This document shows, piece by piece, positions 13,969 to 18,757 of a stretch of DNA of 20,648 bases (positions are counted from its first letter, which is position 1; every line of letters starts with the position of its first letter). Position numbers and translations under genes: made by a program. Under the pieces are notes generated by a model. That model searched no databases, was not told the DNA's origin, and worked only from the letters and a program-made list of their open reading frames with translations. The DNA lies in assembly GCF_902364025.1 (NCBI RefSeq), contig NZ_CABJCG010000040.1, positions 1 through 20,648 of the forward strand, written 5' to 3'. The DNA comes from Enterocloster lavalensis (GTDB lineage Bacteria > Bacillota > Clostridia > Lachnospirales > Lachnospiraceae).

Positions 13969-16539
<2,571 letters not shown>

Positions 16540-16694
16540 GGTATACTCTCCTAACTTCTTCCTTATATAAAATACATTTCCAACCGGCGCATCCACACTG
16601 CTTCTTAATAATTTCTAGTATTTGTCATCTCAGTCCCGCTTATTCCTTGGTTTTACATGGATACAGCTGCTGCGCCTACGATACAATCTTACTT

Positions 16695-16723
16695 ATTGTA
16701 GCACTAAGCCGGAATTTATTCAA
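16695..16723 (-). promoter_or_regulatory. secA promoter
   Basis: Minus strand TTGAAT (16723-16718), 17-nt spacer, TACAAT (16700-16695). One -10 mismatch. The leader is about 155 nt and contains no evident ORF or strong hairpin. Confidence 0.8.
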
Positions 16724-16985
16724 CAAGTTAATACAAAATTAACATTTTGGTCATAAAAACAACGTAGTTACGGTACTTACAGGGTTTGCTTGTGACTTTA
16801 TTGTGTCTAATAGAATGGAAGAAAGTAGTATATATAGGAAGGAAATAGCAATAAGCAAACATCACAAAGTGAAAAACTGCCCACTACTATGAGAGGAATT
16901 ATACCCCCTCTCTCGTTAGATAATATAACTGGCCCCAACCGCAAACGGGGGTGCAATCTCAATCTTTGGCGGAGCACGTCCCGGG
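16724..16985. other. Gene-free AT-rich junction between secA promoter and phage region
   Basis: No gene with a convincing start or family match is visible. The plus strand at 16740-16900 is AT-rich, unlike the GC-rich host genes. Small inverted repeats occur: GAGAGG/CCTCTC around 16891-16912 (with TATAAT on the minus strand inside it) and CCCGGG with CCCCGGG at about 16980-16996. This is the most likely place for one phage attachment site, but no core repeat can be recognised from one end alone. Confidence 0.45.
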
Positions 16986-17177
16986 TCATCCCCGGGCGCC
17001 GCCCTTCTCATGCTCATTGATCAGTTTCTTCCACAGCCGTTCAAACCCTGCCGGGTCCGGCTGCGGGCCGCCTTCTGCTTTGGACTCTGCCTCGGCGGCT
17101 TTGAATTGCCGTAGCAGGTCATCGTCCGAATTGCGGTATAGGCGCTGTAACAGGTCATCAATCCAATGTTTTTTCAT
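16986..17177 (-). CDS. 63-residue protein of unknown function, divergent from XRE repressor
   Basis: A small soluble charged protein: MKKHWIDDLLQRLYRNSDDD, then an Ala/Glu/Lys-rich helix (KAAEAESKAEG), a Gly/Pro turn and FERLWKKLINEHEKGG. It has no cysteine, signal or membrane segment. The frame extends up to 17261, but ATG 17177 is fixed by a perfect GGAGGGG 6 nt upstream. It is controlled by the symmetric promoter/operator region and faces away from the XRE gene. Two helical parts linked by a Pro-rich turn suggest a protein-binding role, such as repressor partner, anti-repressor or anti-sigma-like factor, but this is inference. Confidence 0.75.
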   Translation of the reverse strand: MKKHWIDDLLQRLYRNSDDDLLRQFKAAEAESKAEGGPQPDPAGFERLWKKLINEHEKGGARG

Positions 17178-17201
17178 TACTATCCCCTCCTGAATAAATA
17201 A

Positions 17202-17216
17202 TTCGCTATTACGAAA
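17202..17216. promoter_or_regulatory. Left operator of the XRE switch
   Basis: TTCGCTATTACGAAA is an imperfect palindrome with TTCG/CGAA arms. It matches the reverse complement of the right operator at 14 of 15 positions. It sits just downstream of the -10 of the 63-residue gene, so binding would block that promoter. Confidence 0.75.
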
Positions 17217-17217
17217 C

Positions 17218-17246
17218 ATTATATTATCTATGCACTGTAGAATCAA
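17218..17246 (-). promoter_or_regulatory. Promoter of the 63-residue gene
   Basis: Minus strand TTGATT (17246-17241), 17-nt spacer, TATAAT (17223-17218). The -10 is a perfect match. The -35 abuts the -10 of the opposing XRE promoter. Confidence 0.78.
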
Positions 17247-17252
17247 GATAAT
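17224..17252 (+). promoter_or_regulatory. Promoter of the XRE gene
   Basis: Plus strand TTATCT (17224-17229), 17-nt spacer, GATAAT (17247-17252). The -35 is weak (3 of 6). It overlaps the opposing promoter almost completely, so two RNA polymerases should not bind together. Confidence 0.6.
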
Positions 17253-17253
17253 A

Positions 17254-17269
17254 TTTCGCAATAGCGAAA
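17254..17269. promoter_or_regulatory. Right operator of the XRE switch
   Basis: TTTCGCAATAGCGAAA has perfect 6-bp arms (TTTCGC/GCGAAA) around AATA. It follows the -10 of the XRE promoter, so repressor binding here would allow XRE self-repression. Confidence 0.8.
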
Positions 17270-17287
17270 GTTCAGGAGGGGAAAGCC

Positions 17288-17524
17288 ATGCAGAAATTGC
17301 GCCCAGACATGGATATAGGACAGAATATACAGACCCTACGCCGAAATGCTAAGCTCACGCAAGATATGGTCATTGCCCGAATGGGAGCTATGGGAATTGA
17401 TCTTTCAAAGAGCACATACGCAAAGCTTGAAACAAACCGCATGAATATCAAAGTCAGCGAACTAGTTGCGATGAAGAAGATTTTCAACTGCTCCTTTGAA
17501 GATTTCTTTTCAGGGCTGGAATAA
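17288..17524 (+). CDS. XRE-family helix-turn-helix repressor
   Basis: A 78-residue, single-domain DNA-binding protein. IGQNIQTLRRNAKLTQDMVI (about 11-30) starts the Xre/Cro fold, with the helix-turn-helix through LTQDMVIARMGAMGIDLSKSTYAKLE and the usual closing helices with MKKIFNCSFEDFF. Start ATG 17288 has GGAGGGG 6 nt upstream. No oligomerisation or peptidase domain is attached. It probably binds the two flanking operators. It converges on the endolysin gene. Confidence 0.92.
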   Translation: MQKLRPDMDIGQNIQTLRRNAKLTQDMVIARMGAMGIDLSKSTYAKLETNRMNIKVSELVAMKKIFNCSFEDFFSGLE

Positions 17525-17529
17525 TCAGA

Positions 17530-17556
17530 CGGGCCACCGGTATAGCCGGAAGCCCG
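17530..17556. terminator. Short hairpin between convergent XRE and endolysin genes
   Basis: CGGGC / GCCCG arms enclose an inner CCGG-TATAG-CCGG. The loop region is only 45 bp between the two stops. On the plus strand CTATTATTATG follows, without a strong T-run, so termination strength is uncertain. Confidence 0.4.
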
Positions 17557-17569
17557 CTATTATTATGTC

Positions 17570-18415
17570 CTACCCCATCACGTACTGGTGCTGGTCGAAG
17601 TCATACTGACCCACTATCTGTAGTGCGCCGCGGCCATCAGTAACCATACACTGACCCTCGTGGATCCCTGGCTCCGGACAGAGGAGGAATGCGTCTCCCG
17701 CCGAATCCACCTGATAGCCGGTCAGCATGTAGCCCTCGGCGTCGAACAGATACCAGCCGGATGTTCCACCGGTGCGCTCTGTGAGCCAGTACCAGCCGTT
17801 GCAGGCATATGTGCCGTCAGAATACTGATACCACCAGCGGCGGCCGTCTGCGGCCCGCTGGAAGCCCTCAGTGTATGTAACAGCAGTCTCGGCGCTGGCC
17901 CCATCATCCAGGTTGATGGCGGTGTGGTGTCCCTCGTACAGCAAGACGTCCCCGGCCTGCAGGTACTTGTCGCTGGCCAGGTACTTGCTGGCTGTCAGCA
18001 CCTCAAAACCGGCTGTCTTCAGCGCTGCCCGCAGATTGCCGGTGTAGCAGTAGATACTGACGCCCTGCAGCTTGGTATTGCCCGTCAGATACCCGACCGC
18101 CTTAACGATAGCCGCCACGCCGGCGCTGCAGTCAGACTCACAGGGGGCCGTGATCTTGGCCGGATCATAGCCAGCCTCCTGCAGGCGCTGCCAAAAGCTG
18201 TACCTGTCTCCCTGATCGTAGCCGATCATATCGTTGCCCGCTGCCGCCCTGGCTAGCTCAGCGATCTTTTGGCGCACCTTGGTATCCGGGTGCCTCAGCA
18301 CATAGTTCCACGGCCTGTTGTACCACGGGATCGCAGCCCACTCATGGCTGGTCTGATCCCCTGCCTGGCCGCCGGTATACTTGCCACGCTCGTCGTGGCC
18401 GCAATTACTGATCAT
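17570..18415 (-). CDS. Phage endolysin (cysteine peptidase/amidase-like with cell-wall-binding tail)
   Basis: A 281-residue lytic enzyme without a signal peptide, to be released by the holin. It starts MISNCGHDERGKYTGGQAGD, which resembles phage NlpC/P60-type hydrolases of Clostridia. The likely nucleophile is Cys96 in ESDCSAGV and the likely base is His163 or His164 in GDVLLYEGHHTAINL. The C-terminal third (about 185-281) is rich in Trp, Tyr and Gly (WWYQYSDGTY, GWYWL, GWYLF, DAEGYMLTGY) like choline- or cell-wall-binding repeats. GGAGG precedes ATG 18415. No search could be run to fix the exact catalytic family. Confidence 0.86.
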   Translation of the reverse strand: MISNCGHDERGKYTGGQAGDQTSHEWAAIPWYNRPWNYVLRHPDTKVRQKIAELARAAAGNDMIGYDQGDRYSFWQRLQEAGYDPAKITAPCESDCSAGVAAIVKAVGYLTGNTKLQGVSIYCYTGNLRAALKTAGFEVLTASKYLASDKYLQAGDVLLYEGHHTAINLDDGASAETAVTYTEGFQRAADGRRWWYQYSDGTYACNGWYWLTERTGGTSGWYLFDAEGYMLTGYQVDSAGDAFLLCPEPGIHEGQCMVTDGRGALQIVGQYDFDQHQYVMG

Positions 18416-18430
18416 AGGTTACCTCCAATC

Positions 18431-18459
18431 AAAATAAGGCCCCGGGATCCCCCAGGGCC
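18431..18459 (-). terminator. Terminator-like hairpin upstream of the endolysin
   Basis: On the minus strand GGCCC...GGGCC arms (18459-18455 and 18442-18438), with an inner GGG/CCC pair and one mismatch, are followed by TTATTTTG. It lies between the 85-residue gene and the endolysin, so it could lower endolysin expression relative to upstream phage genes. Confidence 0.6.
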
Positions 18460-18463
18460 AAAA

Positions 18464-18496
18464 GTTGTGACGTCACAACCGTTGCGATATCGCAAC
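18464..18496. repeat. Two adjacent perfect 16-bp palindromes
   Basis: GTTGTGACGTCACAAC (18464-18479) and GTTGCGATATCGCAAC (18481-18496) are each perfect and are separated by one base. They share GTTG/CAAC ends and differ in the centre (GACGTC versus GATATC). They lie in the short gap between the 85-residue gene and the endolysin gene. On the minus strand the first is followed by TTTT. Confidence 0.9.
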
Positions 18497-18499
18497 AGC

Positions 18500-18757
18500 C
18501 TATTTCACGCCGGGCCCATGGTCCGGATCCTGGTCGCTGTTGTGATGCGGCCGGGGCTTCACCGGCGGCATGACCGGCTTGTCCGTGCTGCCGTCATTGG
18601 GGTTCGGATCGTGGGCGCGGGAGTCCTCCTGGCCGGTGGCTGGACCGTAGGGGGTAGTGTGGCCGCAGTATGTAGCCGGTCCCTTCCCGCCGGGATGGCC
18701 GTTGATGTGGTCGTTGAGCTCCTCTGGTGTCATGTTGTTGGTGTTGATTTCGGGCAT
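18500..18757 (-). CDS. Pro/His-rich small phage protein, unknown
   Basis: An 85-residue hydrophilic protein, rich in Pro, His, Asp, Asn and Gly, with a run such as PPVKPRPHHNSDQDPDHGPG at the C-terminus. No membrane segment or cysteine pair. It starts at ATG 18757 with AGGAAGG upstream and follows the holin by 17 nt. It looks largely disordered. A lysis-module accessory is possible from position alone. Confidence 0.6.
   Translation of the reverse strand: MPEINTNNMTPEELNDHINGHPGGKGPATYCGHTTPYGPATGQEDSRAHDPNPNDGSTDKPVMPPVKPRPHHNSDQDPDHGPGVK

Follow-up and report, generated by a model that had tools for sequence, protein, structure and literature searches.

Two short genes that face away from each other at the edge of a prophage raise a simple question: what does the DNA between them control, and by what means? 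In the window, the whole 20,648-nt stretch of Enterocloster lavalensis DNA that was analysed, a 110-nt region parts the divergent genes for a 78-aa XRE protein and a 63-aa partner and holds two near-identical operators (table 1). Both starts lie in an identical sequence, TTCAGGAGGGGA (17194-17183 on the minus strand, 17271-17282 on the plus strand), and within it each gene has the GGAGGGG and 6-nt spacer that the earlier note had described for this divergent pair.

Table 1. Coordinates of the control region and its surroundings in the window.
Feature	Position	Strand	Basis or remark
host DNA (secA side)/prophage junction	16753..16754	.	99% identity of 16300-16753 to G001
63-aa partner gene	16986..17177	-	ATG at 17177; ORF list
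ribosome-binding site AGGAGGGG of 63-aa gene	17184..17191	-	sequence
left operator TTCGCTATTACGAA	17202..17215	.	centre 17208.5; degenerate-site count, palindrome offset in relatives
partner promoter -10 TATAAT	17218..17223	-	sequence, promoter scan, relatives
XRE promoter -10 TAGAAT (putative)	17238..17243	+	suggested by TAnAAT of relatives; no clear -35
partner promoter -35 TTGATT	17241..17246	-	shares 17241-17243 with XRE -10
GATAAT, XRE -10 of the earlier note (with TTATCT at 17224-17229)	17247..17252	+	not the conserved element in relatives
right operator TTCGCAATAGCGAA	17255..17268	.	centre 17261.5, 53 bp from left centre
ribosome-binding site AGGAGGGG of XRE gene	17274..17281	+	sequence
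78-aa XRE (Cro/C1-type HTH) gene	17288..17524	+	Pfam HTH_3
prophage endolysin (ELLD domain)	17570..18415	-	Pfam PF25309, 246.7 bits

The two operators, TTTCGTAATAGCGAA (17216-17202 on the minus strand) and TTTCGCAATAGCGAA (17254-17268 on the plus strand), agree at 14 of 15 positions and belong to a longer inverted repeat, 17202-17225/17245-17268, that is 88% complementary. The near-identical palindromes of the earlier note hold up against chance: with the degenerate site TTCGYWATWRCGAA and at most one mismatch, the window contains two sites, compared with a mean of 0.01 in 100 shuffles. The same search returned no further site in the 20.6 kb. A promoter scan of 16600-18500 with a cut-off of 9/12 found five sites where 1.8 are expected. 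The best is the near-consensus leftward TTGATT-17-TATAAT (17246-17218; 10/12), and the stronger promoter thus serves the 63-aa gene, as had been proposed. The rightward promoter proposed with it, TTATCT-17-GATAAT, exists in the sequence but falls below the cut-off, and relatives do not conserve its -10. GATAAT is replaced here by TAGAAT, since TAnAAT is found in 34/34 regions of relatives that hold the shared promoter. The overlap of the two promoters is confirmed, but its form is corrected: the XRE -10 shares three bases with the partner -35. With transcript starts assumed six bases after each -10, the left operator is centred at about +3 of the partner start and about -41.5 of the XRE start. 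The right operator is centred at about +12 of the XRE start, and the 53-bp spacing corresponds to about five helical turns.

This arrangement recurs beside related XRE genes. Relatives occur in 25/145 genomes in a search with a single query (E 1e-6) and in 63/397 Lachnospiraceae genomes with alignment A2 (E 1e-12). The comparison used 60 regions picked among the stronger matches of both searches, together with L014 and the window. For the promoter count, XRE hits scoring below 70 were excluded (75 to 67), followed by regions at least 85% alike (67 to 56). Written on the XRE strand, the leftward promoter TTGATT-17-TATAAT becomes ATTATA-17-AATCAA. Of the 56 non-redundant XRE upstream regions, 27 match it exactly and 34 with at most one mismatch; the other 22 do not fit (seven with two mismatches, 15 with more). 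Upstream of other ORFs at the same loci, the promoter has this direction in 0/442 regions and faces the ORF in seven, a set that possibly includes divergent partner genes. TAn precedes AATCAA in every one of the 34 regions with the shared promoter, although TA played no part in their selection, so that the plus strand reads TAnAATCAA; the background is 57 of 353 ATTATA-17-AATCAA sites in 31 genomes (summed by hand, XRE sites included). On the simplest reading, TAnAAT would be the XRE -10, with AAT common to the partner -35. In the same 34 regions, the strongest palindrome is centred 9.5 bases before ATTATA, with 6.35 of nine positions paired against a background of 2.6. The second, right-hand site is less regular in position across relatives, and the best nearby mean is 3.7. 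The layout for mutual exclusion suggested in the earlier note is supported and sharpened by these comparisons: the promoters overlap, and 34/56 XRE upstream regions keep the arrangement.

The motif itself is not diagnostic. ATTATA-N14-TAnAATCAA occurs in 134/200 genomes, with only a few known XRE sites among the places listed; it therefore marks ordinary promoters too and is informative only beside an XRE gene. A scan of viral contigs with a longer form of the motif matched two, one of which is the contig of L014. The other, L256, was rejected as a chance match with no XRE at the site. The layout is also found in L165, L166 and L172, which belong to further families of the order, and, by eye, on a Clostridioides plasmid. 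On that plasmid (NZ_CP067354.1; L255 4379-5219), paired TTGTAATTCTACAATTACAA-like sites accompany each of two XRE genes, the second of which is divergent from the gene for a 69-aa hypothetical protein.

The 78-aa protein belongs to the XRE/Cro-C1-type HTH regulators (Pfam HTH_3, 28.4 bits, cut-off 23), and its model has an HTH fold (pLDDT 90, pTM 0.78). The model is closest to the controller proteins C.AhdI and C.BclI (TM 0.72-0.84, E about 0.01); C.AhdI is the best Foldseek match (TM 0.72/0.84, E 0.007), and sequence identity among the top structural matches is 14-20%. A sensor domain would not fit into a protein of this length; any signal would therefore have to come via the XRE level or a partner. 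Recognition helix and operator vary together. Among 37 aligned regions, the helix KSTYAKLETNR occurs with TTC..CGAAAC in 11/11 and Y(S/A)Q(I/M)ExGT with an ATTGCA half-site in 11/11, counts that come from regions kin by descent rather than from independent events; the smaller helix groups each have their own sites. L151, L164, L170 and L171 were left out of this set, and of the grouping of partners, by hand as not convincingly aligned; L171, with one mismatch, is counted among the 34 promoter-bearing regions. Since helix and operator sequence vary in step, binding of XRE to both sites is very probable.

The 63-residue frame is a real and conserved gene, as the earlier note had assumed: 27 homologues were found among 5.77 billion proteins, and comparison with the copy in L001 (G001) gives dN 0.17 and dS 1.25 (dN/dS about 0.14). 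P0003 and P0006, two homologues whose predicted N-termini are longer, have frames that run through the same operator region, which indicates that the operator travels with the gene in other contigs. The view that the partner is not Cro-like also stands. The protein has no HTH match in Pfam, PHROGs or NCBIfam at E 0.1, and its model consists of three helices (pLDDT 82.5, pTM 0.41) with no fold match at E up to 0.001. A profile search for solved relatives gave nothing better than E 0.21. Annotated phages and plasmids hold no match to the protein, nor do phages to the DNA of the pair, and a scan of genome contigs with the 63-aa alignment found three loci, all in [Clostridium] asparagiforme DSM 15981. 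Kinship is found in longer proteins. Profile comparison by hhalign shows the 63-aa protein to be homologous to the N-terminal domain found in DUF4367 membrane proteins (probability 98.3, E 1e-14, 54 columns), and 7/13 of the matches in one search are N-termini of open frames of 264-296 aa with one hydrophobic segment (checked in L019). Residues 1-125 of the G001 protein match 65 proteins, many of which bear DUF4367.

Searched jointly, as the earlier note had proposed, the neighbourhoods of the two proteins show that the pairing recurs but is not obligatory: 4/10 free-standing partner-domain genes (window, L015, L016, L017, the L018 fragment, L023, L027, L061, L154 and L250) diverge from an XRE of this family and the others lack one, a proportion that is not an unbiased rate because the window was given and L154 was found via its XRE. 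In G001, one copy lies directly downstream of a different small HTH gene (L015 10224-10687) and another is a fragment (L018 7888-8013). The distant free-standing copies in L006 and L011 have CGTACAATGGC in common shortly upstream, perhaps a shared promoter without XRE.

We consider it rather probable that the region is a compact, autoregulated CI-like switch with two promoters, in which the partner is on by default and is an accessory gene. The steps predicted from the DNA are as follows. (i) XRE, presumably as a dimer, would bind both operators, as the covariation suggests. (ii) On the left operator it would cover the start of the strong leftward promoter and turn the 63-aa gene off. (iii) XRE probably activates itself: its own promoter lacks a good -35, and the left operator is also centred at about -41.5 of the XRE start, a position from which CI-type proteins contact RNA polymerase. 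(iv) On the right operator XRE would limit its own transcription. (v) The bases common to the XRE -10 and the partner -35 would leave room for one polymerase at a time. (vi) Without XRE, for example on entry into a naive cell, the partner would be on first. (vii) The partner, apparently a soluble free-standing copy of the cytoplasmic N-terminal domain of DUF4367 membrane proteins, would probably bind another protein: XRE, another regulator or the ECF sigma factor encoded beside the DUF4367 gene.

Several known systems share parts of this design. In the PRM/PR region of lambda CI/Cro, one operator both sits near -42 of the promoter for the regulator and covers the start of the opposing one. The left operator occupies the same position here, at about -41.5 and over the partner start, whereas the partner is not a DNA-binding protein and the promoters overlap more closely. 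The C proteins of restriction-modification systems are small, autoregulate and use two sites. XRE resembles C.AhdI and C.BclI in size and fold, but identity is 14-20% in the top structural matches, the two operators flank the divergent promoters with 53 bp between their centres, and no restriction or methylase genes are apparent beside the pair (window ORFs by eye and a domain search of six proteins). By analogy, the nearest worked example would be plasmid pLS20. Its Pr and Pc promoters overlap divergently, strong for the target and weak for the regulator, the regulator start lying 6 bp upstream of the other -35 (PMC4207663). RcoLS20 represses the target, a conjugation operon, and activates then represses itself, with distant operators bridged by a tetramer through looping (PMC4207663). 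The present region is similar in that the regulator -10 overlaps the target -35 (17238-17243 and 17241-17246), as in 34/34 regions of relatives with the shared promoter. It differs in that both sites lie within 70 bp, XRE has 78 residues, its function is predicted, and the search of the 20.6-kb window returned the two sites alone, with no second distant operator for a DNA loop.

The 63-aa protein may be a phage-borne soluble anti-sigma-type domain, able to bind a host ECF sigma factor or to compete with the membrane regulator of that factor; through it the prophage would mute or trigger a host envelope response. We regard this as conceivable yet unlikely. In its favour, besides the domain homology, a DUF4367-type gene occurs together with murG and an ECF-type sigma gene in 7/7 loci, and the nearest genome, G001, has this locus. 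The 276-aa protein has one hydrophobic segment after the domain, whereas the 63-aa protein has the N-terminal domain without membrane segment or DUF4367 part. The anti-sigma role of the DUF4367-type membrane proteins is, however, suggested by neighbourhood and by weak matches, those to DUF4367 and to the NCBI anti-sigma model lying below curated cut-offs; there is no fold match, and murG, on the other strand, separates the sigma gene from the DUF4367 gene. The conserved chromosomal block (L019 2210-5368, L020-L022 and L024-L026) comprises the ECF sigma gene and the gene for the DUF4367-type membrane protein, with murG transcribed in the opposite direction; an exported-looking ORF comes next.

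A second alternative, which we judge doubtful, is an induction module of the TF-smORF type (Silpe et al. 2023), in which XRE would turn on the small protein and the latter would inactivate the prophage CI, leading to lysis without DNA damage. The parts are the same, an XRE-type factor and a counter-oriented small ORF in a prophage, and that paper compares its factors with C.AhdI, C.BclI and C.Esp1396I (PMC10432266), which are also the best structural matches of the present protein. On the IMG/VR contig L061, a partner-domain gene diverges from a family XRE and adjoins an apparent endolysin; by eye, this pair lacks the same double operator. The published factors activate the small gene and the small protein acts on CI (PMC10432266), but the left operator here lies on the partner start point and suits repression. 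The partner domain is moreover common to chromosomal membrane proteins, whereas the smORFs are described there as without homologues (PMC10432266), and the phage CI gene lies beyond the window.

The position of the pair in the prophage bears on the likeness to a lysis/lysogeny switch drawn in the earlier note. Window 16300-16753 is 99% identical to G001, which continues through the secA-hpf spacer without a prophage. The prophage junction thus lies in that spacer; the opposite end is beyond the window, as is the prophage part with the integrase and a classical repressor. Rightward of the pair, a Pfam search identifies the ELLD endolysin, a holin and a glycine-rich protein. With lysis genes on the right and the host junction on the left, the pair lies between the lysis genes and host DNA. 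This is a usual place for accessory genes. An XRE of the same family occurs within 1.5-1.8 kb downstream in 0/20 endolysin relatives examined (20 of 21 loci; L242 ends too soon), and a free-standing partner-domain gene lies downstream of the endolysin in two of the 20, both in G016. One G016 locus (L023 2986-4712) is a prophage lysis end with its free-standing partner-domain gene directly before an ORF with an odd start, which we take to be cotJC-like and perhaps a prophage integration site in a spore-coat gene. In G015 (L017/L163) an XRE/partner pair has cotJ-like genes on one side and an ABC transporter set on the other, a neighbourhood that resembles G016 by eye. A lysogeny decision of this prophage in which XRE plays the part of CI and the 63-aa protein replaces Cro is very improbable. 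Divergent pairs of CI/Cro type occur commonly in C. clostridioforme prophages (PMC11318856), and overlapping exclusive promoters would suit such a role. Against it stand the location at the lysis/junction end, a partner without HTH, the 0/20 endolysin relatives and the same control region joined to many unrelated partners outside phages. A toxin-antitoxin or defence pair, with a toxic 63-aa protein regulated by XRE, would fit a small divergent XRE pair on mobile DNA but is likewise most unlikely, as the 63-aa protein has no PADLOC match at E 1, XRE reaches only E 0.0096, and partner-domain genes occur without XRE.

The favoured reading, an autoregulated switch for an accessory gene, can be set beside the variety of its partners. 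A divergent ORF of at least 35 aa is present in 35/37 anchored regions. By single-linkage BLAST these partners fall into 18 groups, of which eight contain at least two sequences; some of the singletons are preceded by long leaders and are perhaps not genuine partners. The 63-aa family comprises the window, L154 and L163; other groups are DUF6809 (L131, L142 and L165) and a family of about 130 aa in seven regions. The closest XRE relatives (L114, L155, L118 and L121) lie by eye near apparent methylases, Vsr/restriction enzymes or ParM-like genes, which suggests mobile elements; others have chromosomal settings, also by eye. A literature search, mostly without subscription journals, found no paper on DUF6809 or DUF4367 and no description of this module.

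A wider proposal, speculative as a whole and improbable in its full extent, is that of a portable cassette. A short XRE and two operators round overlapping promoters, in which the nine-base element TAnAATCAA would be the -10 of one and the -35 of the other, would be joined to many unrelated small partners across Clostridia. Here it would drive a soluble copy of a host anti-sigma-type domain, through which the phage would interfere with a host sigma-factor pathway. If the switch reading is right, Lachnospiraceae repeatedly use a very small, self-contained device whose output genes are interchangeable and whose operator specificity can be read from the recognition helix. A large set of small genes without annotation, DUF6809 and the 63-aa family among them, would then form a testable class, predicted to be on by default and with a known regulator. 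For one of these partners, kinship to a putative anti-sigma N-terminal domain would supply a concrete hypothesis.
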